This document shows, piece after piece, positions 2,542-64,000 of a DNA stretch of 64,000 nucleotides. Below the pieces are notes generated by a model. That model was given only the letters and a program-made list of their open reading frames with translations. It had not been told where the DNA came from and ran no database searches. Position numbers and translations under genes: made by a program. Where the stretch lies: contig CANQJT010000004.1 of assembly GCA_947624325.1 (NCBI GenBank), forward strand, positions 1-64,000, given 5' to 3'. This DNA is from Candidatus Gastranaerophilales bacterium. Its GTDB lineage: Bacteria; Cyanobacteriota; Vampirovibrionia; Gastranaerophilales; Gastranaerophilaceae. Within the stretch, counting starts at the first letter, position 1, and every line of letters begins with the position of its first letter.

Positions 2542-3166
2542 TAACAGATTTTAACTTATTTTCGTTTTTTAAAAAATCAGCTACTTTTAAATAATTAAAA
2601 GGGCTTGGGTGGGTGGGAGTGTTGCTTTTATCATTCCAATTAAAATATTTTAGCTCCCCTTTTGCAAGTTTTTTCCAATTATTCTTAATTTCTTCAAGTT
2701 CTTTTTTATGACCGCCCCAGGCTATTAAAATATCATTTTTTGTTTGTAAATTTTTGCTTATCTCTTCGTCATTTTGTTTATTAATATAATTTTTTGGATT
2801 TTTTAATATATCATCAGGATTAGAATTAATCGTAGAAAATAAATTTAAAATAACGATTTTAGAATAATCGCATTTACTTGCAATTTTTATTACATTTGTA
2901 ATTGTACCATCTACAAATGTTTTCTTTTTACCGTTTTCTGTTAAATCAACCGGAGCCGATTTTGTTGAAATTCTTTTGTTTATTGTTTTTTCAGACGGAT
3001 TAAACATTATTGCAATCAATGTATCTTTGCCTTCATTTTCCAAATTAACGGTTAATTTATACCTATTTTGATAATCATCATCATATAGGGCAACAGCTTC
3101 TTTTATTGTTATAGTTTTATTATTGATTTCGTCTGTTACTTTTCCGATAAAATAACTTTCCTTCAT
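2537..3166 (-). CDS. DUF1643 domain protein
   Basis: The 209-residue protein shows the DUF1643 pattern: an early AIMFNPSE strand, a central VILNLFS, ILIAWGGHK, and a C-terminal THPSPFNYLK. The family's function is not established; members often sit in accessory regions. ATG 3166 is preferred over the in-frame ATG at 3181 because AAAGGA lies at the right distance before it. The stop lies inside the right-hand direct repeat (2522-2541), so the repeat reaches the end of the gene. Confidence 0.7.
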   Translation of the reverse strand: MKESYFIGKVTDEINNKTITIKEAVALYDDDYQNRYKLTVNLENEGKDTLIAIMFNPSEKTINKRISTKSAPVDLTENGKKKTFVDGTITNVIKIASKCDYSKIVILNLFSTINSNPDDILKNPKNYINKQNDEEISKNLQTKNDILIAWGGHKKELEEIKNNWKKLAKGELKYFNWNDKSNTPTHPSPFNYLKVADFLKNENKLKSVI

Positions 3167-3198
3167 TCTTAATCCTTTCAATTATTTGTACATTGGTA

Positions 3199-4080
3199 TT
3201 ATAAATTCAAAGTTTTAATTAACGGCGGTAATAACACATCCCAAGCTTTTTCGTTTGGATGAAAATCATCTTTTTTAAGATGATACTCTTCTTTAGAAAG
3301 TGAAATATCAGATAAATCTTTTGTATTAATAATTTTTATTGATTTATCTATGGAGGAAAAATTTAATCCAAAATTATTTGAATTTGCATCATACATTAAG
3401 ATAACAAAATTAGTATCAGGATATTTCTTTTTTATTTCGGCATTTATTGTATTAAAGTATGCACAAATAAGTTTTGAATGTTTTTTCATAAAATGAGAAT
3501 ATACATAAATATAAAAAATATTATTAAAAAAGTAATAGGTGTAAAATTGTTTATATATTGGGTAATAATCTTGTTTTAGGTGCATTAAGCCGTCATTTCC
3601 CATTTTATAAACGGGATAGCCCGTAAAATCATGAAAACACACCGTAGAATACAGCCTTCTTATTTGATCATACATAAAAATATAAATTATATATTCGGGA
3701 TTTTTAATATTTGGGTCTGTCATATTATTTTGCAGCATATATAAAGTATTTTGTAACCCTTTGCCAGGCAATGAATAATTATATACGGGTCTTTTTGTCA
3801 TAGCAGAAAGTTTATAACCAAATGTCTGTTCAATATTTAAACCCTGACCATATGCATAGGAGCAGCCAAATACAATTAACGGAGACTTAGAATAATTTAT
3901 TCCTTCTACAGGACGAAGCTTATACATTGATAAAATATCTTTATAATTAAATTTTTTAATTATATAAGCTATTTCAGGATATGATTTTTTGTGATGGTAA
4001 TACAGACATATTTCCAACACCATCATTAACATTAATAATAAAATTAAATTTATCGTAAAGATACAAAATAATTTTTTCAT
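3199..4080 (-). CDS. SGNH/GDSL-hydrolase-like membrane-anchored protein
   Basis: The protein has 293 residues with an N-terminal signal-anchor (residues 2-27). A block I-like motif FGCSYAYGQGL (nucleophile Ser expected) and a C-terminal DDFHPNEKAW (Asp-x-x-His) match the SGNH fold used by envelope acyl esterases and acetyltransferase-type proteins. A paralog at 47749-48699 shares both motifs and the phrase YKLS.MKRPVYN. The 18-bp gap to the DUF1643 gene suggests cotranscription. Substrate unknown; surface glycan O-acylation or deacylation is possible. Confidence 0.6.
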   Translation of the reverse strand: MKKLFCIFTINLILLLMLMMVLEICLYYHHKKSYPEIAYIIKKFNYKDILSMYKLRPVEGINYSKSPLIVFGCSYAYGQGLNIEQTFGYKLSAMTKRPVYNYSLPGKGLQNTLYMLQNNMTDPNIKNPEYIIYIFMYDQIRRLYSTVCFHDFTGYPVYKMGNDGLMHLKQDYYPIYKQFYTYYFFNNIFYIYVYSHFMKKHSKLICAYFNTINAEIKKKYPDTNFVILMYDANSNNFGLNFSSIDKSIKIINTKDLSDISLSKEEYHLKKDDFHPNEKAWDVLLPPLIKTLNL

Positions 4081-4203
4081 AACACATCCGAATATTTAAA
4101 ATATTTTACCATAACTATTAATATTTGTATTTAACATTAAAAGTCGACATAATATTAAAATTTTGATATCATTTAGAAATAATAATATAAACGAGAAATT
4201 AAT

Positions 4204-4977
4204 ATGGATAAAAATGAAATTTTTAAAGAATTAACAGAATATAAAAATAATAAACAGTATAAAAAATTGTTAAAATGCGCAAAAGAAGCAGCTGAAACAT
4301 TTAATGACAACTGTTTTTATAATGAAATGTATAATTGTTTAATAATTTTAAATAAAAAAACTACGGCTGTAAAAATATTAAAAAAAATGCTTATTAACGA
4401 GCCTAATAAAGTTTCTTTGTATAAAAAAATAGCATATTTATATTACCAGCTCGGCAAATACAAAAAAGCATTAGAATATTATACAAAAGTTCTTGTATAT
4501 GAACCTTTATCATCTGAAAATTATTTTAATACGGCAAGTATATATCATTACTTAAAAGAACTAAATATAGCTCTTATTCACTATGATGCATCTTTAAAAT
4601 TAAATCCTAAAAATATCAATTCATTAAACAATAAAGGAATATTATTATATGAATTGGGGAAATGGGAAAATGCACTTTGTTGTTTTAAGGAAGCAATAAA
4701 CTATTCAAAAAATCATCCTGAAGCATATCATCATATTGGTAAAATATACAGAGAATTTCAAGCGGATTATGAATTATCCGAATTATATTTAAAAAAAGCG
4801 ATATTACTTGATCCAAAGTATTCGGATAATTATTATCAGCTTGCAATTACATATGAAAAGAACTCAAAGCATAAAGAAGCAATAAGTACACTTGAAAAAT
4901 GTTTAGAAATTAATTCTAAACATAAAAATGCAAAATTACTATTAGAAAAAATAAAATCATCCGTTAAGGGTAATTAA
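4204..4977 (+). CDS. TPR-repeat protein
   Basis: The 257-residue protein is built almost entirely of tetratricopeptide repeats (for example YYQLGKYKKALEYYTKVLVYEP and YYQLAITYEKNSKHKEAISTLEKC), about six or seven units, with no signal peptide. TPR arrays bind partner proteins. It converges on the radical SAM gene, their stop codons overlapping by 4 bp. A GAGAAA sequence precedes the ATG. Confidence 0.75.
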   Translation: MDKNEIFKELTEYKNNKQYKKLLKCAKEAAETFNDNCFYNEMYNCLIILNKKTTAVKILKKMLINEPNKVSLYKKIAYLYYQLGKYKKALEYYTKVLVYEPLSSENYFNTASIYHYLKELNIALIHYDASLKLNPKNINSLNNKGILLYELGKWENALCCFKEAINYSKNHPEAYHHIGKIYREFQADYELSELYLKKAILLDPKYSDNYYQLAITYEKNSKHKEAISTLEKCLEINSKHKNAKLLLEKIKSSVKGN

Positions 4978-6002
4978 ACTAAACCCTTTTTTTCCATATC
5001 GTAGAGACAGAACGGCTGGCAATGTAATTGACCGGTATAAGTTGCTGCTTTTTCGGAACATCCGCCTCTGCATATACCGCCATATTTACAATCCGCACAA
5101 ATTCCGCCTAATTGTGACATATCAAATCTTCTGTTATATTTAAATCCTTCGGGATTATTCCATATTTCTTTTAATGATTTTTCACGAATATTGCCTTCTA
5201 TGTACATTTTATCCTGCATTGATAAACAACCTTTTATTGAACCGTCGCTTTCAATCCCGATAATAGACATGCCTGCATTGCATCCTTTCCAATGAGTCAT
5301 ACCCATATTTTTAATCATTCTTGAAAAATAACCCAAAGAATCAGCTTCCGTAATTCCTAAAATACCTTTATATCTTGGTCTGTTTTTTGCAACAAATTCA
5401 GCAACCTGATAAAAATCCTTATCGGATATTGCCCATTCTTTGGGCATTCTGCCTCTGATATTTGCTGTTTGTATCTGCCATAAATCTACATGATGATCTA
5501 ATAATATTTGTTTTATCCCTTCAAGTTCATTAATATTTCCCTTATGTATCGTAGATACTGCAGATACCATAAAACCATTTTCTTTAAGACGGTCAAACAC
5601 CCACATTAAATGGTCAAAAACACCTTCTCTTCCTCTGATATAATCGTGAGTCTTTGCATTTGAACCGTCAAGACTAAAGCCTAAATAATTAATGCCTATT
5701 GCTTTTAAAGTATCTATAATATCATCATTTACAATAAATCCGTTGGAAATAAAATCACATTTCATTCCTAAATATACTATTCTATGGGCAAGAATACTCC
5801 AATCTTTTCTCATAAAAGGTTCACCGCCTGATAATGTAACTCTTTTACAACCCAAGTCGGCAAGTTGTTCAATCAAGTTTAAAGCTTCCGCAGTTGTTAA
5901 TTCTTTCGGTCTCGTATTTATATTGGCATTTGAACCGCAATGTAAACAGCTTATATTACAACTCAAAGTGATTTCCCAAACAGCACCTTTTAAATTATAC
6001 AT
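4974..6002 (-). CDS. Radical SAM/SPASM domain protein
   Basis: In this 342-residue protein Cys15, Cys19 and Cys22 (CNISCLHC) form the radical SAM iron-sulfur motif and SGGEPF the SAM-binding loop. The C-terminal third is a SPASM domain with GCLSM, CADCKYGGICRGGC and HCQPFC, which would bind auxiliary clusters. Such enzymes modify ribosomal peptides, mature enzymes or act in cofactor assembly. No obvious precursor peptide gene lies beside it, so the substrate is unknown. The closest neighbour is the convergent TPR gene. Confidence 0.8.
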   Translation of the reverse strand: MYNLKGAVWEITLSCNISCLHCGSNANINTRPKELTTAEALNLIEQLADLGCKRVTLSGGEPFMRKDWSILAHRIVYLGMKCDFISNGFIVNDDIIDTLKAIGINYLGFSLDGSNAKTHDYIRGREGVFDHLMWVFDRLKENGFMVSAVSTIHKGNINELEGIKQILLDHHVDLWQIQTANIRGRMPKEWAISDKDFYQVAEFVAKNRPRYKGILGITEADSLGYFSRMIKNMGMTHWKGCNAGMSIIGIESDGSIKGCLSMQDKMYIEGNIREKSLKEIWNNPEGFKYNRRFDMSQLGGICADCKYGGICRGGCSEKAATYTGQLHCQPFCLYDMEKKGLV

Positions 6003-6210
6003 ATTTATTACCCCGTATTCTTAATTATAACCGTTGTTTGTTTAACAGTTAATATCAAATTACCATATCCTGTTAAAGTTTGCAAATTTCATATTTCTTT
6101 TAAAAATTAAATATATTTAATATTTTCTTTTAAATTAGCATTTTTAAAAATTAATTTTTGTTTATATATATAGAGAAATTATAAGTTTTAGTTAAAAATA
6201 CGGGGATAAA

Positions 6211-6948
6211 ATGATTGTAAACGCATTAATGAATGCTAATTTCTACCAAGAATATGAAATGGGTAATAAAATTAACGAGTCCCAAAATACTGATAATTCT
6301 ACATCTATATATGATACAGCGGTATCAGATGAAACTAATACAGCTGAAAAAAATCAAATACTTGATAATTATAAAAACATAATTGACAAAGCTATTGAAA
6401 CAGAACTGTTTTTGTCAGAATGTAAACCTTCATCGGATTCTATTTTAATATGGGATAGAACCTATAAGAAAGATGATTATATATGTACTGAACATAAAGG
6501 CTGGGGCAATAAAAAAACCGTTATAAAAGTTAAAGATGACAGTTTATTTGAGCTGGCAGGAGATGTTTTATTTGGACTCCAACCTGAAAAGATTATAGAA
6601 GAATATGATAAAAACAATAAATTATGTAAAACAACACAATTTGATAAAGAAGGAAACTGTATTGTAACTGTTTTTAATTCTGACGGTTCAAAGAAAGAAG
6701 TAGTAGAAATAAAAAATAAAGAAAAAAATACCTCAGAATATAAAACAGAACTAAAACATACATATTATAACGAGTCCGGTACCTGTGTAATGACAACCGA
6801 TTTTGAGATTAATAAATTTTCAGGGGATGAAAATCCGAAAAAAACAACAACTGCCGAATATTTCAAGCCGGATGGAAGACCGGATTATATGTCTGAATTT
6901 GTATATAACCTTATTTTTAATACAAATAACGGTGAAAATAACAGTTAA
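6211..6948 (+). CDS. Hypothetical protein with short YD-like repeats
   Basis: The 245-residue soluble protein has no signal peptide. Its middle contains EYDKNNKLCKTTQFDKEGNCIVTV and TVFNSDGSKK, resembling the short strand repeats of YD/MORN-like proteins. The N-terminus is Asn/Thr-rich. ATG 6211 follows ACGGGGA. The region just upstream (6041-6097) has an inverted repeat, TTTAACAG/CTGTTAAA. Family not recognised; probably lineage-specific. Confidence 0.55.
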   Translation: MIVNALMNANFYQEYEMGNKINESQNTDNSTSIYDTAVSDETNTAEKNQILDNYKNIIDKAIETELFLSECKPSSDSILIWDRTYKKDDYICTEHKGWGNKKTVIKVKDDSLFELAGDVLFGLQPEKIIEEYDKNNKLCKTTQFDKEGNCIVTVFNSDGSKKEVVEIKNKEKNTSEYKTELKHTYYNESGTCVMTTDFEINKFSGDENPKKTTTAEYFKPDGRPDYMSEFVYNLIFNTNNGENNS

Positions 6949-6978
6949 ATAAACCTTTAAAATAGTTTTAGATTACTT

Positions 6979-8247
6979 TTATTTATCCTTATTATTTACT
7001 AATCCCGGTTCATATTTATTTTTTGTAATAAGATTTCTTAAGAAAAACTGTACTTTTGGCAGACAAAAAGCTAATAAGAAAGAACTTATAACAACATTTA
7101 AGAGTATATTAACACATTTAGCCGTTTTTGCTTTTTTGGCAAATTCTTCTATGTTACCGTAATTGATTGCATTTTGACTGAAATTTTTAATATTATTTAT
7201 AAATTTATTCATTTCCTCTATATTAATATAAGCTCCGGGGTCTCTTGTATAATCATCTGTCATTTTTATAAGATTTACTTTTTTTGCTAATTTGGTAATA
7301 ATTTCTTTCGGATTAGTGTCTAAAAATTCAAGTATATCCTTTGCACTGTTTGATTTAGGGAATTTTAATGCATTTTCTTTTATTTTAGATATAAATTCTT
7401 TATCTGCAATAATAATAGGATCTAAATCAGAATTAATTTTAAATAATTTTTTAGTTAAAAAATCCAAGCCCTTTGCGATTTGTTTAGGGGCAATATAGTT
7501 TAAATACATCATTCCCGTCATTTTGATACCGTTATCTAATGCTTCATTTTTATTTCTTGCTGTTGTAACTCTGCCTATACTAAGTCCGCCGTCTGTTATT
7601 GCCATTTTTTGAACTGTTGTTAATTTATTCATTGCAATTAATAAGTTTGATTTGAAAGATGGTTTGTTTTTTTCCTTTTGTTTATCGGTAATTCTTTTTT
7701 CAAAGTCGTTAATATCAATGAAGCAGTAAGTTTTAGGGGATTTATTATAAGGAATTTTCATTACTTTTTTTGTTAATCCAAAATTAAGTTTTGGCAGAAT
7801 AAACCCCATAATTAAAGTCGGTATCAAAACAGAAGCCAATAATTTAATTCCGAGTAATTTTTGGTATTGAGGAAGGTTATCTTTAACTTTAATTAAATCT
7901 TTAACCGCATCAGGTGCTTTATCCTTAAATAATTCAATATTTAAATCAAGATTTTGAAAATTATCACCTTTTAATAAATCAGTGCTGATATTGGGATTAA
8001 ATCCTTTTTTGTTAATTATTTTATCGCAAATTTTACCGACAAGAGGAATACCGCCAAGCCAGACTGCTGAAGTGGCATACTCATCTATTATTCTTTCTCT
8101 TACTGCATTTTTAGCGATATATTTATCAGATTTATTCTGATTATAAGTCATAATAACTTTTGTAGGATTTTCAATACCGCAATCTCTAATAAATAAGGGA
8201 TAAATACTATTATTATTTCCGATAGCCGAAATGATTGATGTTAACAT
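6979..8247 (-). CDS. Lineage-specific membrane protein behind an attenuator
   Basis: This 422-residue protein has a hydrophobic segment near residues 150-170 (LLASVLIPTLIMGFILP) and another near the C-terminus (VNILLNVVISSFLLAFCLP), with Lys-rich soluble parts between. No known family was recognised. ATG 8247 is preferred over the upstream in-frame TTG because GGAG lies 9 bases before it. The gene is preceded by a leader peptide and a terminator/antiterminator pair (8280-8404), so its transcription is probably controlled by translation of that leader. Confidence 0.65.
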   Translation of the reverse strand: MLTSIISAIGNNNSIYPLFIRDCGIENPTKVIMTYNQNKSDKYIAKNAVRERIIDEYATSAVWLGGIPLVGKICDKIINKKGFNPNISTDLLKGDNFQNLDLNIELFKDKAPDAVKDLIKVKDNLPQYQKLLGIKLLASVLIPTLIMGFILPKLNFGLTKKVMKIPYNKSPKTYCFIDINDFEKRITDKQKEKNKPSFKSNLLIAMNKLTTVQKMAITDGGLSIGRVTTARNKNEALDNGIKMTGMMYLNYIAPKQIAKGLDFLTKKLFKINSDLDPIIIADKEFISKIKENALKFPKSNSAKDILEFLDTNPKEIITKLAKKVNLIKMTDDYTRDPGAYINIEEMNKFINNIKNFSQNAINYGNIEEFAKKAKTAKCVNILLNVVISSFLLAFCLPKVQFFLRNLITKNKYEPGLVNNKDK

Positions 8248-8279
8248 TTTTATTTTCTCCAATTTTTACACTAAACAAA

Positions 8280-8311
8280 AAAGCGGTCTTTTTACCTGAA
8301 AAGACCGCTTT
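8280..8311 (-). terminator. Attenuator terminator in the leader of the 422-residue membrane protein
   Basis: On the minus strand a 13-bp perfect stem (8299-8311 with 8280-8292, core AAAGCGGTCTTTT) is followed by TTTTTTGTTT, a classic intrinsic terminator placed before the gene's ribosome binding site. Loop plus 5' arm (8295-8305) are exactly complementary to 8353-8363, so an 11-bp antiterminator can form instead. On the plus strand no T run follows, so it acts in the minus direction. Confidence 0.75.
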
Positions 8312-8338
8312 GTATAAAAATCGGATATTAAAACCGCA

Positions 8339-8404
8339 TCACAGATTTAACAGTCTTTTCAGGCTGATATGGCAATGATGAAGTTTTAAATAATCGTTAA
8401 ACAT
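8339..8404 (-). CDS. Putative attenuator leader peptide, 21 residues
   Basis: ATG at 8402-8404 follows AAGGGA at good spacing and encodes MFNDYLKLHHCHISLKRLLN plus a final Leu, then TGA. Codons 9-12 are His-His-Cys-His. Codons 14-18 contain the strand CCTGAAAAGAC, which pairs with the downstream terminator arm. A ribosome stalled at the His/Cys codons would leave that strand free and allow readthrough; one that reaches the stop codon would cover it and let the terminator form. The arrangement is seen in the sequence; the regulation is inferred. Confidence 0.6.
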   Translation of the reverse strand: MFNDYLKLHHCHISLKRLLNL

Positions 8405-8620
8405 TTATTTCCCTTTTTATATTGTAAGTTTAACACTAATTATCAGGATTTACAAGTGTCACTCAGATTATATAACGTTCAGAAAATAATTTTTTGATAT
8501 GTTTTATAAGAATTTTATGATTAACAAAATTTAATATTTTAAAAAAAATTCTAAAGTTTTTTATATTTGTGCCGATAAGCGAATTTGTGTAGTAAAAATT
8601 TAATATATGGGGTAAAGATT
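8405..8620. other. Divergent intergenic region
   Basis: This very AT-rich spacer lies between the leader peptide and the EF-hand gene and must hold promoters for both directions. A TATAAT on the minus strand (8468-8473) is a possible -10 for the leader, but no convincing -35 was found. No gene or repeat was recognised. Confidence 0.4.
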
Positions 8621-10522
8621 ATGTCAAATTATTTTAGCGATTTTAAAGACTATTTGCAAAAACATGTCCAAGAAAATGGAGGATATAATAAAAATATAGA
8701 TAATGCCGCAGGTAAAGATATAGAAGATTTTCAGTTATTTGAACTGGTCGACGGTAAATATGTAGAAACCGCCGAATATAAAGAAATGTTAGAAAACGGC
8801 AACGGTTCTATTACAAAAGATGATTTTACCAGCATTTTTGAGGAAAGCGGTGTTTCAAAAGAAGAAGCTGAAGCTATATATGATTTTATCGCAGGGCAAG
8901 ATGGCGATGATGTAATGTCAAAAGAAGAATTTGAAACTTTGGCAAGTTTAGGAAGCCACTTAGTATCTGATGGTGAATATGTTGATAAAGACAGAAACGG
9001 AGTTACTTTTAACGAACACGATATTACAACTTTATATGCAATGTTAAAGAAAGCAGAAAATGGAGAAGAAACTACAGGGAATTATACTACGAAGAAAAAA
9101 GATGACGAAGTAGAACTTGAATTAGATTATGATGATGCTTTTGCAATTAACACTGCAGGAATGAAAAAAGGTGATAAATCTAAAGAAATAAAAGATTTAA
9201 CATTATTTGAACTGCAAGAAGACGGTTCATATGAATTATCTGAAGAACTTCAAGACATGCTTGATAAAGATGGCAATATAGATAGAGATAAATTTATTGA
9301 ATACTTACATCTTGAAAATAGAGATGACGCATTAACCGAAGAACAAATAGGACAAATTTATGATGCCGTAGCAGGTAAAGACGGTGTAATGTCTTTAGAC
9401 GAACTTGAAGCACTTGCTAAATTGGGTGAAAAAATGTACCCGACAAAGGATAAAGATGATAAAGGTGTCAAGCTTGATGAATATGACTTGCTTGCATTAT
9501 ATAAAATGATAGATGATGCAAGACCTGCTCAACCTCAAGGTCCTATAGTTCCTCCGGCAGGAGATTCTGAAGGGGATGAAGCACCAACTATTCCTCCTGT
9601 GGATATAGGCGGCGAAGATGAAGGTGAAAAAGAAATGTATGCACCACCTCCTCCTGAAATATCAGATGAGCCTGAGCCGACAACAGTTCATCCGGATTAT
9701 CCGGATATCCCAGATCTTCCTATGTATGCACCTCCACCTCCCGGAATATCAGAGGAGCCTGAGACATCAGATGAACCCGGAATTACTGATGACCCTGAAA
9801 TATCGGAAGACCCTGAGACATCAGATGACCCGAGTGTTACAAGTGATCCTGAAACATCAGATGACCCCGGTGTTACAAGTGACCCTGAGACATCAGATGA
9901 CCCGAGTGTTACAAGTGACCCTGAGACATCAGATGACCCGAGTGTTACAAGTGATCCTGAAACATCAGATGACCCGAGTGTTACAAGTGACCCTGAAACA
10001 TCAGATGACCCCGGTGTTACAAGTGACCCTGAGACATCAGATGACCCGGGTGTTACAAGTGATCCTGAAACATCAGATGACCCCGGTGTTACAAGCGATC
10101 CTGAAACATCAGATGACCCCGGTGTTACAAGTGACCCTGAAACATCAGATGACCCCGGTGTTACAAGCGACCCTGAGACATCAGATGACCCCGGTGTTAC
10201 AAGTGACCCTGAAACATCAACAGACCCGGGCGACGACCCAATACCGTCCTACGATAATCCCGGCGGTGAAGATATACCTCCTGCACCACCCGGTGGTGGT
10301 GATGAACCGGGTCCGAACATATCAGACGACAGCGGTGCCGATGACTCAGATGTATCCGGCGGTGATGATAGCGGTGGTTCCGGCATACCCGGTGACAGCG
10401 GTGCAGATGAACCCGGTGTATCAGGTGATAATGAACCTGACACGGATGTATCAAGCGGCGACCAACAATGCCCTGACCCAACAACAGAACCAACTCACCC
10501 TGAAGATGAACCGGATTTATAA
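8621..10522 (+). CDS. EF-hand-like protein with a long Pro/Asp/Ser repeat tail
   Basis: The 633-residue protein has no clear signal peptide. The first 310 residues hold two similar halves, each with EF-hand-like loops (DKDRNGVTFNEHD, DKDGNIDRDKF, GKDGVMSLDELE, DKDDKGVKLDEYD), suggesting calcium binding. The rest is low complexity: PPPPEISDEPEP segments, then about eleven 12-residue units of SDPETSDDPGVT type, then Gly/Asp-rich sequence. ATG 8621 follows GGGG and is preferred over the in-frame TTG at 8585. An intrinsic terminator follows. It may be a structural or surface protein; location uncertain. Confidence 0.65.
   Translation: MSNYFSDFKDYLQKHVQENGGYNKNIDNAAGKDIEDFQLFELVDGKYVETAEYKEMLENGNGSITKDDFTSIFEESGVSKEEAEAIYDFIAGQDGDDVMSKEEFETLASLGSHLVSDGEYVDKDRNGVTFNEHDITTLYAMLKKAENGEETTGNYTTKKKDDEVELELDYDDAFAINTAGMKKGDKSKEIKDLTLFELQEDGSYELSEELQDMLDKDGNIDRDKFIEYLHLENRDDALTEEQIGQIYDAVAGKDGVMSLDELEALAKLGEKMYPTKDKDDKGVKLDEYDLLALYKMIDDARPAQPQGPIVPPAGDSEGDEAPTIPPVDIGGEDEGEKEMYAPPPPEISDEPEPTTVHPDYPDIPDLPMYAPPPPGISEEPETSDEPGITDDPEISEDPETSDDPSVTSDPETSDDPGVTSDPETSDDPSVTSDPETSDDPSVTSDPETSDDPSVTSDPETSDDPGVTSDPETSDDPGVTSDPETSDDPGVTSDPETSDDPGVTSDPETSDDPGVTSDPETSDDPGVTSDPETSTDPGDDPIPSYDNPGGEDIPPAPPGGGDEPGPNISDDSGADDSDVSGGDDSGGSGIPGDSGADEPGVSGDNEPDTDVSSGDQQCPDPTTEPTHPEDEPDL
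9806..10201 (+). repeat. 36-bp minisatellite inside the EF-hand gene
   Basis: About eleven tandem 36-bp units encode DPETSDDP(G/S)VTS. Units differ mainly by Ser versus Gly codons and silent changes (gat/gac, gag/gaa), so the copies have homogenised recently. The unit length is a multiple of three, so copy-number change would lengthen or shorten the tail without breaking the frame. Confidence 0.9.
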
Positions 10523-56920: not shown

Positions 56921-57289
56921 TTATATTTTTATAAGTAAAAAAGTTGTATCTTTTAATGCTTTAACGGAGTGAAGAACATCTTTTTCAAATAAAAAAATTT
57001 GACCTTTTTTAAGTTTATATTTTTTAGTATCGTTATTATCTTCATCAGGTAAATCACATCCGCATGCCTGACAAGTACATGTATCATTAACGGGAAAATT
57101 CATTTCAAGTTCACCGTCTGTTATATAGATACAAACATTTGTATGCGACATATGAGGTTCAAGCATTTGATTTTTCTTTAAAGCAACTAATTTTAAATGC
57201 GCTCCGTTATTTTCCAATAAGTCTACAATTTCTCTGTCAGATTCTTTTAAATCTATTAAATCTTCTATTTCAAGAGTTTTATAAAGCAT
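56921..57289 (-). CDS. Small cupin-domain protein
   Basis: The 122-residue protein has cupin motifs: LEPHMSHTNVCIYITDGELE (metal-binding His residues) and a C-terminal FLFEKDVLHSVKAL. An insertion with CTCQACGC may bind metal. ATG 57289 follows AAAGGAG, so the upstream in-frame ATG at 57304 is rejected. Function unknown; small-molecule sensing or binding is possible. Confidence 0.75.
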   Translation of the reverse strand: MLYKTLEIEDLIDLKESDREIVDLLENNGAHLKLVALKKNQMLEPHMSHTNVCIYITDGELEMNFPVNDTCTCQACGCDLPDEDNNDTKKYKLKKGQIFLFEKDVLHSVKALKDTTFLLIKI

Positions 57290-57378
57290 ATTATCTCCTT
57301 TCACTTCATTTAAGTGTATTTAAAGATTAAATTATAATTATCCCCGAACAGATTATATCTTTTGAATTATCTTTTAGC

Positions 57379-57428: not shown

Positions 57429-58925
57429 ATGGAAGAATATTTAAAGAATAAAAATTTTAAATGCTTAATGTGGGTTTTTATAATAATTTCAATAGTCCAC
57501 GTTATATATGCAGCAGTGACAATGAGGGGAATGTACGAAGACGGTGCATTCTATATGCTTGATCAATTAAACAGCTACTCCAACGGTATATTTAAAATAT
57601 CAAATGATTTCTCTCATCCGAGATTTTGTATTATGTTACTTTTGGACTTACCTTCAATGTTTGCTTTTTGGGTGCTGCATATACATAATAAATTTGCATT
57701 AATGATGATTTTTAGCTGTTCTTTGTTTCTTTTGCCCTTATTAGCTTTATGGTGGAACTATGTCCTGACTAAAAAAACAAAAAGACTTGATATTTTTTAT
57801 TGGTCTTTATTCTCATATTCTTTAATTATTATTACTTTCTCTATTTTTTCAGTAGTTGAATGTATTTTAGGAAGTATGCTCCACTTTGTATTATGGAATT
57901 ATTTGGCAGGAAAACTTGAATATAACAAAAAAGATTTAATATTAATTACTTTTCTTATTATAGTTATGTTTGGTACTTTTGAATATGTAATTATTCTCGG
58001 CTTAATTTTCTTTATCGCTTCACTATTGTATGCTAAACAAGAAGAAAATATTAAAAACAAAGCGGTCAAACTATATATAGGCATAGGGGCTCTTGGAGCT
58101 TCTATTTTTAACTTAATTTTTGCACTAAATGTACCCGGAGAAAAAGAAGAAATCACAAGATTTTTTATTGAAGGGTATAACTATTTACCGCATCTTTTAG
58201 AATTAAATTCTTCCATAAGTATCATAACTTTAATAATATTATTGGGTTTAATATTTAATAAAAAATCCATAGCATTAAAATCTATAATAATATTTTCATT
58301 AATATATATTCTCAATTTTATCAGATTGATTAATACAAGCTTATCTTCTGTTTCACCAATGTGGGAACAGCATATAAGAACCGTGCCTTGTTTTAGTATT
58401 CCTCTAATTTTTATTGTAATTTTCTTGTTTGATATACTCAAAAAAGAACAAAATTATATTAAATTAACAAACTATATTTGTATAGTTCTAATGTGCGGAA
58501 TAATGCAAACCGCTTGGCAGTTAGTTGATACATACTATTGGGATAAAAATATTCAATATATGAAATCTGAGCTGAACAAAACTCAGGATTTATTATACAT
58601 TCCGTCTGACCATGAAGAGATTTCAAGCTTTTTTAATCCTGCCTTAAGAAGATATATCTGGCATGGTGTTTTTACATCAACAAGTATTCTTTTTTCTGAA
58701 AGTTATGAGCAAAAAACATTATTATTAAACTATGATGAACCCATAGATGGCGGAAACGGAAGTTACAGAGAATTTTTATATATACCAAAAAATAATCCGG
58801 ATATGATTGCAATCCCTTGGGGCTGGTTTAATATAAAAAACAAATTTTGGGATTTAACAAAATGTGCGGATGCCCTGAAAAAATATGATATAGAACATAA
58901 TATAGAAAGTAAATTTAATGAATGA
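57429..58925 (+). CDS. Tandem polytopic membrane protein, copy 1 (GT-C-like?)
   Basis: The 498-residue protein has about ten predicted membrane helices. MRGMYEDGAFYML (residues 32-44), an acidic loop after the first helix, and HPRF in the first external loop recall the catalytic-loop acidic residues of GT-C glycosyltransferases. IHNKFALMMIFSCS and the C-terminal AIPWGW..IKN.FWDLTKCA are shared by all four copies. It has no G run (LAGKLEYNKK at that site). Its stop overlaps the copy 2 start by 8 bp. No characterised family was recognised. Confidence 0.6.
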   Translation: MEEYLKNKNFKCLMWVFIIISIVHVIYAAVTMRGMYEDGAFYMLDQLNSYSNGIFKISNDFSHPRFCIMLLLDLPSMFAFWVLHIHNKFALMMIFSCSLFLLPLLALWWNYVLTKKTKRLDIFYWSLFSYSLIIITFSIFSVVECILGSMLHFVLWNYLAGKLEYNKKDLILITFLIIVMFGTFEYVIILGLIFFIASLLYAKQEENIKNKAVKLYIGIGALGASIFNLIFALNVPGEKEEITRFFIEGYNYLPHLLELNSSISIITLIILLGLIFNKKSIALKSIIIFSLIYILNFIRLINTSLSSVSPMWEQHIRTVPCFSIPLIFIVIFLFDILKKEQNYIKLTNYICIVLMCGIMQTAWQLVDTYYWDKNIQYMKSELNKTQDLLYIPSDHEEISSFFNPALRRYIWHGVFTSTSILFSESYEQKTLLLNYDEPIDGGNGSYREFLYIPKNNPDMIAIPWGWFNIKNKFWDLTKCADALKKYDIEHNIESKFNE

Positions 58926-60414
58926 TTTTTTAAATAATAAATGTTTTAAAATCTTAATTTTATTATTTATATTAATATCTATAATTCATATTATATATGC
59001 AACAATAACGATGCGAGGGATGTACTTAGACGGGGCATTCTATATGCTTAATCAATTAGACAGCTTCTCTATGGGAATTATTAAAATATCCCATGATATA
59101 TCTCATCCCAGATTTTTTATAATGACCCTACTACAAATTCCGACAATTCTTTCTTATTTTATTTTAAAGATACATAATAAATTTGCACTAATGATGATTT
59201 TTAGTTGTTCTATATTCCTTTTGCCCTTATTAGTTTTATCGTGGAACTATCTTCTTACTAAAAGGACTCAAAGATTTGATATTTTCTTCTTCTCGTTATT
59301 TTCTTATTGCGGAATAATAACCGTTTATTTAATATACGGAATTGTTGAATCTATATTAGGCTGTATGCTTAATTGTATTTTATGGAATTATTTAGCTGCA
59401 AAAATAAACTATACTAAGAAAGATTCAATTATAATTGCATTTTTAACTATACTATTGTATCAAACATTTGAATATATTATTTATATAGGTATAATTTTCT
59501 TTATTGCATCAATTATGTATGCAAAAAGAGAAACAAATCTTAAAAACAAAATAACAAAATTTTTAATAGGAATAGGCTCACTTGGAGCATCAATATATAA
59601 TTTATTTTTCATAATAAAAGTACCGGGCGAATATAGTGAAATTATAAGATTTTTTAAAGAAAGTTATTTTTATTTTTCACATATAACAAACCTCAATATT
59701 TCAACAAGTATAATTACATTAATATTTCTAATTTTTATAGCATTAAAAAAAGAATCAACAGGAATAAAAACAATTTTCTTATTTTCTTTAATTTGTATTA
59801 TTAATTTTGTAAGATTATTAGTATCATTAAAAACATCTATATCACCATTATATGAAAGTTCCTTTCGGACATTGATTTGTTATGCTTTTCCGATAATGAT
59901 AATAATAACTTGTATTTTAGATTTTAAGCAAAAGGAACAAAACCTAATTAAAATTAAAAATTTGATATGTATAGTATTAATATGCGGTATATTTCAAACT
60001 GCTTGGCAGATAGTTAATACATATTATTGGGATAAAAATATTCAATATATGAAATCAGAATTGAATAAAACTCAAGATTTATTATATATTCCCTCTGAAC
60101 ATGAAGATATATCGGGAAATATAAATCCTGAATTAAGACGATATATACCATACTGCTGTTATGCAACAATGAGTATATTATTTTCTGATACATACGAACA
60201 AAAAACATTATTATTAAATTATGACGAAGAAAGAGATCAAATTAATTTATCTTACAGAGAATCATTATTTGTTCCCAAGAAAAATAAAGAATTTATAGCA
60301 ATCCCTTGGGGCTGGTATAATATTAAAAATGAATTTTGGGATTTAACAAAATGTGCGGAAGCACTGAAGAAATATGATATAGAACATAATATAGAAAGTA
60401 AATATAATGAATGA
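58918..60414 (+). CDS. Tandem polytopic membrane protein, copy 2
   Basis: The 498-residue protein shares MRGMYLDGAFYML, HPRF, IHNKFALMMIFSCS and the conserved C-terminal AIPWGWYNIKNEFWDL block with the other copies, but the DNA is the most divergent of the four. There is no G run. The segment after about residue 225 differs strongly from the others. The gene overlaps copies 1 and 3 by 8 bp. Confidence 0.6.
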   Translation: MNDFLNNKCFKILILLFILISIIHIIYATITMRGMYLDGAFYMLNQLDSFSMGIIKISHDISHPRFFIMTLLQIPTILSYFILKIHNKFALMMIFSCSIFLLPLLVLSWNYLLTKRTQRFDIFFFSLFSYCGIITVYLIYGIVESILGCMLNCILWNYLAAKINYTKKDSIIIAFLTILLYQTFEYIIYIGIIFFIASIMYAKRETNLKNKITKFLIGIGSLGASIYNLFFIIKVPGEYSEIIRFFKESYFYFSHITNLNISTSIITLIFLIFIALKKESTGIKTIFLFSLICIINFVRLLVSLKTSISPLYESSFRTLICYAFPIMIIITCILDFKQKEQNLIKIKNLICIVLICGIFQTAWQIVNTYYWDKNIQYMKSELNKTQDLLYIPSEHEDISGNINPELRRYIPYCCYATMSILFSDTYEQKTLLLNYDEERDQINLSYRESLFVPKKNKEFIAIPWGWYNIKNEFWDLTKCAEALKKYDIEHNIESKYNE

Positions 60415-61870
60415 ATTTTTAAATAATAAAATATATAAATTTTTGATGTGGTTTTTTATAATAATTTCAATAGTCCACGTTATATATGCAACAGTAACAA
60501 TGAGAGGAATGTATATGGATGGTGCCCATTACATGTTAAACGAATTAAACAATTATTCAAACGGCATATTAAGATTTTCATTTGATATAACACATCCCAG
60601 ATTCTTTATTTTGGCATTATTAGAATTACCATCAATGATAGCTTTTTTTGGGTTACATATACATAATAAATTCGCATTGATGATGATTTTTAGTTGTTCT
60701 ATGTTCCTTTTGCCCTTATTAGCTTTATGGTGGAACTATGTCCTGACTAAAAGAACAAAAAGACTTGATATTTTTTATTGGTCTTTATTTTCATATTCTC
60801 TAATTATTATTACTTTCTCTATTTATTCTATTGTTGAATGTATTTTAGGAAGCATGCTCCACTTTGTATTATGGAACTATTTGGCAATGGGGGGGGGGAG
60901 TAAATATAACAAAAGAGATATAGCTTTAATTACTTTTCTTATTATAGTTATGTTTGGAACATATGAATATGTAATTATTCTCGGCATAATTTTCTTTATC
61001 GCAGCATTAATGTATGCTAAACGGGAAGAAAATATTAAAAATAAAGCTGTTAAATTATATATAGGTATAGGTGCTCTTGGGACTTCTATTTTTGACTTAA
61101 TTTTTGTACTGAATGTACCCGGAGAAAAAGGAGAGTTTTTAAGATATATAAATGAATTGTATATTAATATACCCAATTTATTTAATTTAAATCTTTCAAT
61201 AAGCTTTTTAACCTTGCTATTATTATTTTTATTGATATTTATACAAAAAAATTTAAATAATAAATTTTTAATTTTTACAATTTTTTTATTTGTTATAAAT
61301 TTTACATCTCTTTGTAATAAATTATATTTTTCTCTATATCCTTTAGGAGAACAATCTCTTAGAGTAATTGCTTGTTTTGCACTTCCTATAATTTTTACAA
61401 TAATATTAATATTTGATATACTCAAAAAAGAACAAAATTATATTAAATTAACAAACTATATTTGTATAGTTTTAATGTGCGGAATATTTCAAACCGCTTG
61501 GCAATTGATTGATACATACCATTGGGATAAAAATATTCAATATATGAAATTTGAGCTTAATAAAACTGAAGATTTTTTATATATTGCTCCTGAACATGAA
61601 GAAATATCAAGTTATTACAATCCAAAGTTTAGAAGATATATTGCAGACTGGGTATTAACTGCAACAAGTATATTATTTTCTGAAAGTTATGAACAAAAAG
61701 CATTACTTATATTATATGGTACATATATTCCTAAAGATAATAAAGATATACTTGCAATTCCTTGGGGTTGGTATAATATTAAAAATGAATTTTGGGATTT
61801 AACAAAATGTGCAGAAACACTGAATAATTACAATATAGAACATAATATAGAAAGTAAATATAATGAATGA
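60407..61870 (+). CDS. Tandem polytopic membrane protein, copy 3, with a 10-G run
   Basis: The 487-residue protein has the same architecture (MRGMYMDGAHYML, HPRF, IHNKFALMM). Ten G at 60889-60898 encode M-Gly-Gly-Gly from residue 161 in a loop. One G more gives TAG-type termination at once (GAG TAA), and one less reaches TAG within eight codons, so slippage would truncate it. The gene is currently in frame. The 5' end (137 bp) and a 3' block (116 bp) are identical to copy 4. Confidence 0.65.
   Translation: MNEFLNNKIYKFLMWFFIIISIVHVIYATVTMRGMYMDGAHYMLNELNNYSNGILRFSFDITHPRFFILALLELPSMIAFFGLHIHNKFALMMIFSCSMFLLPLLALWWNYVLTKRTKRLDIFYWSLFSYSLIIITFSIYSIVECILGSMLHFVLWNYLAMGGGSKYNKRDIALITFLIIVMFGTYEYVIILGIIFFIAALMYAKREENIKNKAVKLYIGIGALGTSIFDLIFVLNVPGEKGEFLRYINELYINIPNLFNLNLSISFLTLLLLFLLIFIQKNLNNKFLIFTIFLFVINFTSLCNKLYFSLYPLGEQSLRVIACFALPIIFTIILIFDILKKEQNYIKLTNYICIVLMCGIFQTAWQLIDTYHWDKNIQYMKFELNKTEDFLYIAPEHEEISSYYNPKFRRYIADWVLTATSILFSESYEQKALLILYGTYIPKDNKDILAIPWGWYNIKNEFWDLTKCAETLNNYNIEHNIESKYNE
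60889..60898 (+). repeat. Poly-G run in copy 3
   Basis: Ten consecutive G in an AT-rich coding sequence, in frame, in a loop at residues 161-164. A typical contingency-tract length. Confidence 0.9.
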
Positions 61871-63350
61871 ATTTTTAAATAATAAAATATATAAATTTTT
61901 GATGTGGTTTTTTATAATAATTTCAATAGTCCACGTTATATATGCAACAGTAACAATGAGAGGAATGTACTTAGACGGGGCTTTTTATATTCTTGATCAA
62001 TTAAATAGGTACTCTAATGGAATATATACTATAACTTCTTGTTCAGATCACCCCAGATTTTTTATATTGACATTACTACAATCACCATCAATTATAGCAT
62101 ATTCTATTTTACATATACATAATAAATTCGCATTAATGATGATTTTTAGCTGTTCTATGTTCCTTTTGCCCTTATTAGCTCTATGGTGGAACTATGTCCT
62201 GATTAAAAAAACAAAAAGACTTGATATTTTTTATTGGTCTTTATTTTCATATTCTTTAATTATTATTACTTTCTCTATTTTTTCCATAGTTGAATGTATT
62301 TTAGGAAGTATGCTCCACTTTGTATTATGGAATTATTTGGCAATGGGGGGGGGTAAATATAACAAAAGAGATATAGCTTTAATTACTTTTCTTATTATAG
62401 TTATGTTTGGTACTTTTGAATATGTAATTATTCTCGGCTTAATTTTCTTTATCGCTTCACTATTGTATGCTAAACAAGAAGAAAATATTAAAAACAAAGC
62501 GGTCAAACTATATATAGGCATAGGGGCTCTTGGAGCTTCTATTTTTAACTTAATTTTTGTACTAAATGTACCAAATGAAAAATGGGAAATTATAAGATTT
62601 TTTAATGAAATTTATGTTACACTTCCTCATATATTTAATATAAATTTTTCAATAAGTTTGATTACAATACTAATGCTTTGTATATTAATATATAAAAAAA
62701 GAAAAATTGATTTTAAATTAACTTTATTGTTTATTTCTTTATTTATCTTGAATTTTATACGAATTTTATATTGTATTTCAACCTCTTTAAATCCAATGTA
62801 TGAACAAGCTCTAAGAGTAATTGCTTGTTTTGCACTTCCTATAATTTTTACAATAATATTAATATTTGATATACTCAAAAAAGAACAAAATTATATTAAA
62901 TTAACAAACTATATTTGTATAGTTTTAATATGCGGAATATTTCAAACCGCTTGGCAGTTGGTTGATACATACTATTGGAATAAAAATATTCAATATATGA
63001 AATCTGAGCTTAATAAAACTCAAGATTTATTATACATTCCGTCTGAACATGAAGAAATATCAAGTTTATATAATTCTAACTTAAGAAGATATATATGGCA
63101 CAGAATGTATGCAGCAACAAGTATAGTTTTTTCTGAAAGCTATGAACAAAAAACATTGCTGGTAAATTATGATTATAATTATGAGCCAATGCAGGGACAT
63201 CATAGAGAATATTTATATGTCGTTGATAATACAACTATAGCAATACCTTGGGAAAAATTTAATATTAAAAATAAATTTTGGGATTTAACAAAATGTGCGG
63301 ATGCACTCCAAAAGTATGATATAGAACACAATATTAACCAAGATAAATAA
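61863..63350 (+). CDS. Tandem polytopic membrane protein, copy 4, with a 9-G run
   Basis: The 495-residue protein shares MRGMYLDGAFYIL, HPRF and the IHNKFALMM block. Nine G at 62345-62353 occupy the same codon position as in copy 3, and a shift of one base either way gives a stop within eight codons. The DNA is a mosaic: identical to copy 3 at the 5' end, identical to copy 1 over 181 bp in the middle, and identical to copy 3 near the 3' end. tilS follows after 20 bp. Confidence 0.65.
   Translation: MNEFLNNKIYKFLMWFFIIISIVHVIYATVTMRGMYLDGAFYILDQLNRYSNGIYTITSCSDHPRFFILTLLQSPSIIAYSILHIHNKFALMMIFSCSMFLLPLLALWWNYVLIKKTKRLDIFYWSLFSYSLIIITFSIFSIVECILGSMLHFVLWNYLAMGGGKYNKRDIALITFLIIVMFGTFEYVIILGLIFFIASLLYAKQEENIKNKAVKLYIGIGALGASIFNLIFVLNVPNEKWEIIRFFNEIYVTLPHIFNINFSISLITILMLCILIYKKRKIDFKLTLLFISLFILNFIRILYCISTSLNPMYEQALRVIACFALPIIFTIILIFDILKKEQNYIKLTNYICIVLICGIFQTAWQLVDTYYWNKNIQYMKSELNKTQDLLYIPSEHEEISSLYNSNLRRYIWHRMYAATSIVFSESYEQKTLLVNYDYNYEPMQGHHREYLYVVDNTTIAIPWEKFNIKNKFWDLTKCADALQKYDIEHNINQDK
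62345..62353 (+). repeat. Poly-G run in copy 4
   Basis: Nine consecutive G, in frame at residue 161, aligned with the run in copy 3. One extra G creates an immediate TAA. Confidence 0.9.
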
Positions 63351-63370: not shown

Positions 63371-64000
63371 ATGAAAGAAACAGTAAAAAATATATTAGAA
63401 AAATATATAAATATAAGCTGTGAAACAACTTTAATAGTAGGTTTTTCAGGCGGATGGGATTCTATGTGTCTTTTAGACATAATGAATAAATTATCCCATG
63501 AGTACGGATTTTTATTAGTGGCAGCCCACCTAAACCATAATTGGCGAGGCAAAGAATCGGAAGCGGAAAAAGAAAGATGTCTGGCTTTTTGCGAAGAAAA
63601 TGATATTACTTTTATATCGGATACATTGCCTGATAATGTAAAAGCCTCAGAGCTTGTGGCAAGAGAGATGCGATATGACTTTTTTAAACGATGTGCCGAA
63701 GAATTTGAAGCGGATGCCATCTTAACCGCTCATACAAAAAGCGACAATGCGGAAACCATTTTATACCGTATTATTAAAGGAACAGGTTTAAACGGACTTG
63801 AAGGAATTAAAGAAATAAGAGATTTAGGCGGTTTTAAAGTAATAAGGCCCATCTTAAATTTTTCAAGAAAAGAAATTGAAGAATATTGTATTAAAAATGA
63901 ACTATATCCTAATAATGATACAAGCAATACTAATACAAAATATGCAAGAAATAATATAAGACATAATATTATGCCTGCAATTAAAATTATTAATCCTAAT
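63371..64000 (+). CDS. tilS: tRNA(Ile)-lysidine synthase, 5' part
   Basis: The frame is open from ATG 63371 to the window edge (210 codons, no stop). The PP-loop is FSGGWDSMCLL, and AAHLNHNWRGKESEAE, TAHTKSDNAETILYR and TKYARNNIRHNIMP are TilS motifs. It modifies the CAU anticodon of tRNA-Ile to lysidine. The 3' end is outside the window. Confidence 0.9.
   Translation, partial: MKETVKNILEKYINISCETTLIVGFSGGWDSMCLLDIMNKLSHEYGFLLVAAHLNHNWRGKESEAEKERCLAFCEENDITFISDTLPDNVKASELVAREMRYDFFKRCAEEFEADAILTAHTKSDNAETILYRIIKGTGLNGLEGIKEIRDLGGFKVIRPILNFSRKEIEEYCIKNELYPNNDTSNTNTKYARNNIRHNIMPAIKIINPN

Follow-up and report, generated by a model that had tools for sequence, protein, structure and literature searches.

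A mosaic tandem array of predicted GT-C glycosyltransferase genes, two with poly-G tracts, in an uncultivated gut Gastranaerophilales bacterium

Introduction

Well-studied phasomes driven by strand slippage are mostly those of pathogens, in Campylobacter, Helicobacter, Neisseria, Haemophilus and Mycoplasma. The C. jejuni genes cj1421c and cj1422c carry poly-G tracts and encode capsule phosphoramidate transferases, which to our knowledge are not GT-C membrane enzymes. These two phase-variable genes have about 1000 bp in common and apparently recombine often, even in the laboratory (PMC6321876). The maf family of C. jejuni comprises paralogous glycan-modification genes, three of them phase-variable and two with identical sequence (PMC13130089). 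At the scale of whole genomes, C. jejuni NCTC 11168 has 29 poly-G/C loci (PMC4965091) and H. canadensis has 29 repeat-associated coding regions (PMC2823697). We found no report of phase variation in Melainabacteria or Gastranaerophilales in the open-licence literature. Here we describe a four-gene tandem array in a Candidatus Gastranaerophilales genome, in which alternating identical and diverged segments occur together with long poly-G tracts.

Results

The array and its neighbours

The window, the whole 64,000-nucleotide stretch of DNA that was analysed, has 31% GC and belongs to a genome (G000) of 1.98 Mb in 20 contigs, whose named close relatives are Candidatus Gastranaerophilales assemblies and a goat-caecum bacterium. 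Four paralogous genes, copies 1 to 4, lie in tandem between a cupin-like ORF and a gene that we take to be tilS from its SGGWDSMCLL motif and general knowledge of the family (Table 1). All four frames are full-length and open, each array gene overlaps the next by 8 bp, and 21 bp separate copy 4 from tilS; the four genes are probably one transcription unit. A search of the G000 genome found no further copy of the array gene and no remote silent donor cassette. Antigenic variation from silent cassettes, of the vls/pilS type, was rejected because all four copies are full-length and open and the genome holds no extra copy. RecR, looked for as recombination machinery, is present in the G000 genome and in nearly all relatives.

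Table 1. Features of the array and its flanks (positions in the window)
Feature	Position	Strand	Basis or remark
Cupin-like ORF	56921..57304	-	left neighbour, conserved; name assigned by eye
Copy 1, predicted GT-C glycosyltransferase, 498 aa	57429..58925	+	ORF; AlphaFold2 model; GT-C matches
Copy 2, 498 aa	58918..60414	+	ORF; even divergence from copy 1
Copy 3, 487 aa, in-frame G10 tract	60407..61870	+	ORF
Copy 4, 495 aa, in-frame G9 tract	61863..63350	+	ORF; core mosaic of copy 3-like and copy 1-like segments
Putative conversion block, 137 bp identical, 5' end, copies 3 and 4	60377..60513 and 61833..61969	+	
Putative conversion block, 181 bp identical, copies 1 and 4	57942..58122 and 62379..62559	+	
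Putative conversion block, 116 bp identical, copies 3 and 4	61361..61476 and 62814..62929	+	
Variable block V1 of copy 4	61970..62110 (end approximate)	+	predicted first periplasmic loop
Variable block V2 of copy 4	62560..62813	+	predicted EL4, TM8-TM9, EL5
Variable block V3 of copy 4	63060..63250 (approximate)	+	predicted C-terminal periplasmic domain
G10 tract in copy 3, codes Gly-Gly-Gly	60889..60898	+	predicted cytoplasmic TM4-TM5 loop
G9 tract in copy 4	62345..62353	+	same aligned site as copy 3 G10
tilS (presumed tRNA-Ile lysidine synthetase)	63371..64000	+	right neighbour, conserved genus-wide; continues beyond window end

Copies 1, 3 and 4 form a mosaic

A sequence-only reading of this DNA had claimed three blocks of exact identity between copies, strong divergence between those blocks, and recombination among the copies. 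The three blocks are exact, with 0 mismatches in each and a mismatched base flanking both ends of every one, and between them identity falls to about 46–76% in 50-column windows. The nearest partner of copy 4 switches along the gene, and the breakpoints between near-identical blocks are inconsistent with one tree, as expected of a tandem family homogenised by gene conversion. In a permutation test (599 polymorphic columns, 2000 permutations), the longest runs of identical informative sites were 62 for the pair 1–4 and 49 and 32 for the pair 3–4, against null maxima of 26 and 23, respectively; the observed lengths were never reached. The variable blocks correspond to residues of about 35–84 (V1), 238–320 (V2) and 408–480 (V3), and V1 of copy 4 includes the invariant D38 and HPR63-65, between which the sequence varies.

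Because the permutation test disregards rate variation along the gene, we compared synonymous sites only. The proportion of synonymous differences (pS) in variable versus core segments was 0.61 versus 0.14 for the pair 1–4 (Fisher p 3e-16), 0.52 versus 0.17 for the pair 3–4 (p 2e-9) and 0.61 versus 0.28 for the pair 1–3 (p 1e-7), p values that are indicative because the block limits were set after the alignment had been viewed. Control pairs scored with the same blocks are flat: pS is 0.55 in variable and 0.57 in core segments for the pair 1–2 (p 0.81), and 0.63 and 0.67 for copy 1 compared with the only copy in species G010 (p 0.45). We read this pattern, low in the core and high in the blocks, as the trace of gene conversion and not of uneven selection. 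Copy 2 appears to be the copy least touched by conversion, since it is evenly diverged from copy 1.

Divergence in V1–V3 among copies 1, 3 and 4 is as high as between species. Core dS among these copies ranges from 0 to 0.5. Most of these values are lower than those of tilS between G000, G010 and G034 (0.5–0.9), and the dS of the variable blocks equals or exceeds the tilS values. Exchange in the core therefore probably took place after the species split, and the blocks probably date from about the time of the split or from before it.

A second array in a related species

A close homologue is present in 25 of the 41 genomes of the genus, the only genus in which the homologue search found the close family, and wherever a locus extends far enough, the gene almost always lies between the same cupin and tilS. 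Each of the 25 has one copy, except G034 with two and G000 with four. The two-gene array of G034 occupies the same locus, and its core is identical between the copies over 802 bp, while dS reaches 1.2 in V1 and 1.1 in V3. In G034 V2 is homogenised, so this block is not always spared. Vertical descent of the same blocks in relatives, which the sequence-only reading had named as evidence against recombination, was not found across the 41 genus genomes; its claim of recombination is supported by the synonymous-site heterogeneity with flat internal controls and by the independent array of G034. The proteins encoded by tilS are 99% identical between G000 and G010 or G034, compared with 71–74% for the array enzymes.

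Some single homologues at the cupin–tilS locus (L066 in G021, L067 in G004, L060 in G011) are frameshifted, partly deleted or interrupted by an early TAG. These homologues have no G tract and are decaying or misassembled copies; a reading of the G021 and G004 forms as phase-OFF was rejected, as the break falls at about residue 190–220, where there is no G run. The homologue of G063 (L122) has a hydrophilic insert of roughly 50 residues before its last transmembrane segment.

The array proteins have a predicted GT-C fold

Searches of Pfam, NCBIfam and PDB sequences returned nothing above threshold for the array proteins, and we therefore file them as having a GT-C-like fold and not as members of a named GT-C family. 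An AlphaFold2 model built from 11 sequences has a pTM of 0.82 and a mean pLDDT of 75.9, with a poor C-terminal domain. Foldseek placed ALG12 first (E 0.0065, probability 1.00), with ALG9 (probability 0.90), AftA and ArnT lower, among unrelated helical proteins. By VIA-align, ArnT superimposes with Z 11.0 and an rmsd of 6.5 over 344 residues, and the top 25 PDB rows (Z 4.7–11.0) are all GT-C proteins or complexes with them, namely ArnT, STT3/PglB, AftA, Pmt4, Emb, ALG9/12 or DPY19; unrelated proteins begin at Z 4.7. The tool itself notes that Z below 13 is weak for helical proteins. The uniform family of matches nevertheless supports a GT-C fold with moderate confidence, and the tentative GT-C assignment that had earlier been made from a DGAFY motif agrees with this fold comparison of the predicted model.

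PMT/ArnT-type enzymes have a catalytic acid followed by an HPP-like motif in the first external loop. In the 11 proteins D38 is invariant, within the DGAFY motif (DGAHY in copy 3) of the loop after TM1, and HPR63-65, in the predicted first external loop, is nearly invariant. Under an N-in topology, which we assigned from helices and charges, the first periplasmic loop corresponds to V1, the stretch from EL4 to EL5 to V2 and the C-terminal periplasmic domain to V3, so that the variable blocks lie mostly on the predicted periplasmic side. Nucleotide differences on the periplasmic versus the other side are 0.274 versus 0.107 for the pair 3–4, with no circular shift as large, and 0.268 versus 0.139 for the pair 1–4, with 1.6% of shifts as large. 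The bias is not significant by itself for the pair 1–3 (14.9% of shifts) or the G034 pair (6.6%).

Poly-G tracts in copies 3 and 4

Copies 3 and 4 each carry a poly-G tract, in frame in this assembly, that the earlier reading had not mentioned. Simulated slips of 1–2 bases lead to a stop at residue 164–172 in copy 3 and 163–171 in copy 4; both genes accordingly have one mark of a simple-sequence-repeat phase-variable gene, a run of at least 8 G in which a change of length would alter the frame. The tract is missing from copies 1 and 2 and from the homologues examined in relatives, and its being an ancestral feature of the family was rejected on account of these tract-free homologues. The tracts suggest a second mechanism of diversification beside recombination.

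A genome-wide set of long G tracts

Long G tracts are in excess throughout the genome. In the window there are 104 G/C runs of length 4 and nine of length 5, none of 6–8, two of 9 and one of 10, and the G000 genome has 62 tracts of G8–G11 (4 G8, 33 G9, 20 G10 and 5 G11) with a sharp gap at run lengths 6–7. The set consists of the two array tracts, a G9 at 741–749 of the window and the tracts of loci L076–L107. A simple rule, which asks for at least 60 open codons to either side of the tract, places 30 of the 62 in an ORF; of these, 20 are in frame and 10 are out of frame. Tract-bearing genes include GT4 and PMT_2-like GT-C glycosyltransferases, NAD-sugar epimerases, a pyruvyl transferase, an FkbM methyltransferase, a hexapeptide transferase and nucleotidyltransferases, and an MBOAT acyltransferase ends immediately before one tract. 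Locus L085 holds adjacent paralogues of about 980 aa (3139–6075 and 6780–9702) that are 92% identical and have identical tract flanks; one has C9 and is open over 978 aa, and the other has C10 and is frameshifted after 101 aa. The two appear to be a natural ON/OFF pair, and they lend indirect support to switching by the tracts. Other tracts lie about 43–48 nt before the start codons of Kelch-repeat and other proteins, directly upstream of TATAAT, which suggests phase variation through promoter spacing.

Several further features accompany the tract set. The G9 at 741–749 stands directly upstream of TATAAT, 48 nt before the Kelch-repeat ORF 798–1955, and the same module of G tract and TATAAT stands before Kelch-repeat and other genes in loci L098 and L099. 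In L099, two Kelch-repeat proteins (4390–5619 and 6625–7854) are 100% identical, and the G10 promoter tracts in front of them are identical as well. A second GT-C-like paralogue family (PMT_2-like, with a D-E...PPLW motif) has poly-C/G tracts in L080, L081, L091 and L097, some of them, in L080 and L091, near residue 162–168, roughly where the tracts of copies 3 and 4 lie.

The number of tracts of 9 or more per genome ranges from 0 to 119 within the genus, compared with 0 to 5 in other families. Genome G032, with 119, shows the same bimodal run lengths as G000, and G006, at the same GC, has no long run. Loss of mismatch repair was rejected as the cause of the tracts, mutS1 being found in tract-rich and tract-free genomes alike. 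Within the genus (g1), G001, G006, G018 and G011, and by count G021, have 0–1 long G tracts and cluster in homologue trees; the tract set was therefore probably gained or lost by clade.

Discussion

We consider it rather probable that the array encodes phase-variable periplasmic GT-C glycosyltransferases of differing specificity, homogenised by gene conversion, that diversify a surface glycan. The tandem enzymes would sit in the inner membrane and use a probably polyprenyl-phosphate-linked sugar to modify, in the periplasm, a surface glycan such as LPS/O-chain or similar. Conversion between copies would keep the transmembrane scaffold alike (about TM2–TM7 and TM10–TM11) and could reassort the periplasmic blocks, the first external loop, EL4/EL5 and the C-terminal domain, which would remain as different as between species. 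In GT-C enzymes such segments form the rim of the active site and the acceptor site, and their divergence here makes it likely that the copies have different specificities for donor or acceptor. Slippage in the tracts of copies 3 and 4 would truncate the enzyme at about residue 165, a putative reversible switch like those of Campylobacter and Neisseria contingency loci. Four enzymes of differing specificity under partly random control could then yield a diversity of surface glycans, plausibly directed against phages or host factors. A surface- or glycan-modifying role, already proposed in the sequence-only reading, is one that we infer.

It is also possible, though on balance unlikely, that copies 1, 3 and 4 are young tandem duplicates whose variable blocks recombination exchanged for DNA of other strains or species, with no homogenisation of the core. 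Duplication followed by import would explain low core dS and high block dS equally well, and it suits a fast-evolving locus between conserved neighbours (dN between G000 and G010 is 0.008 for tilS against 0.16–0.27 for the array genes). However, the genus homologues examined include no close donor, the region trees place the blocks at species-level distances, and copy 4 has some of its core in common with copy 1 and other parts with copy 3, which requires exchange between copies in any case.

With regard to the poly-G tracts, we regard it as improbable that they are a fixed coding feature, a Gly-rich loop, and not a switch. In its favour, both tracts are in frame in the one assembly, no lengths other than G10 and G9 were seen for these genes, and relatives are without the tract. 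Against it stand the bimodal run lengths, with none of 6–8 in the window, the many other tracts frameshifted in otherwise intact genes, the equal bimodality of G032 and the absence of long runs from G006 at the same GC.

An assembly artefact, in which misjoined reads of related strains or copies gave chimeras and artificial identity, is more improbable still. The identical blocks are near short-read length, the 802 bp of identity in G034 come from what seems, by its contig name (NODE), to be a short-read assembly, and consensus collapse could inflate exact identity. Such collapse would hardly create the mosaic order, and the artefact is at odds with four open frames, overlaps of exactly 8 bp, cupin–tilS surroundings that match those of relatives, and a second species, assembled separately, in which a near-identical core again goes with diverged blocks. 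Uneven selection alone, strong in the periplasmic parts and constraining the core with no recombination, fits a dN/dS that is higher in V2 (about 0.4–0.9) than in the core, but it deserves almost no credence, being contradicted by the same heterogeneity at synonymous sites (p down to 3e-16), by the flat pairs 1–2 and 1–G010 and by the changing nearest partner of copy 4.

Beyond the array of putative conversion-homogenised, phase-variable enzymes, we lean slightly towards the view that the genus has a phasome at least as large as that of Campylobacter, with poly-G in glycan genes and promoters, and that its tandem GT-C genes combine block reassortment with slippage to give combinatorial glycan diversity in a gut commensal. 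That a putative dense phasome occurs in an uncultivated gut lineage, in the non-photosynthetic group sister to cyanobacteria, suggests selection for such systems by phage pressure or gut commensalism, and not by immune evasion of pathogens alone. The homogenised scaffold set apart from preserved variable blocks offers a clear test case for recombination and slippage acting jointly, and the related species, which range from 0 to 119 tracts per genome, permit comparative tests from existing metagenome reads.

Both mechanisms are already known, and cj1421c and cj1422c of C. jejuni combine them (PMC6321876); the novelty lies in the lineage, in an array of GT-C genes whose blocks alternate and in how large the tract set is. 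The C. jejuni pair has two genes and one shared block; the array described here belongs to a different phylum and has four genes in which core and variable blocks alternate. The maf family of Campylobacter serves flagellin modification and, in the accessible part of its description (PMC13130089), no alternating-block mosaic appears, in contrast to the alternating blocks of this array. The array proteins resemble the GT-C transferases ArnT, PglB/STT3, AftA and Emb in predicted fold, in the long first external loop, bearing an invariant Asp, that comes after TM1 and in a C-terminal periplasmic part, but they have no detectable sequence similarity to them. Finally, like the phasomes of Campylobacter, Helicobacter and Neisseria, the genome is rich in homopolymer tracts that lie within or ahead of genes for glycans and the cell surface; unlike those, it is the genome of an uncultivated gut Vampirovibrionia bacterium, with 62 tracts of 8 or more in G000.
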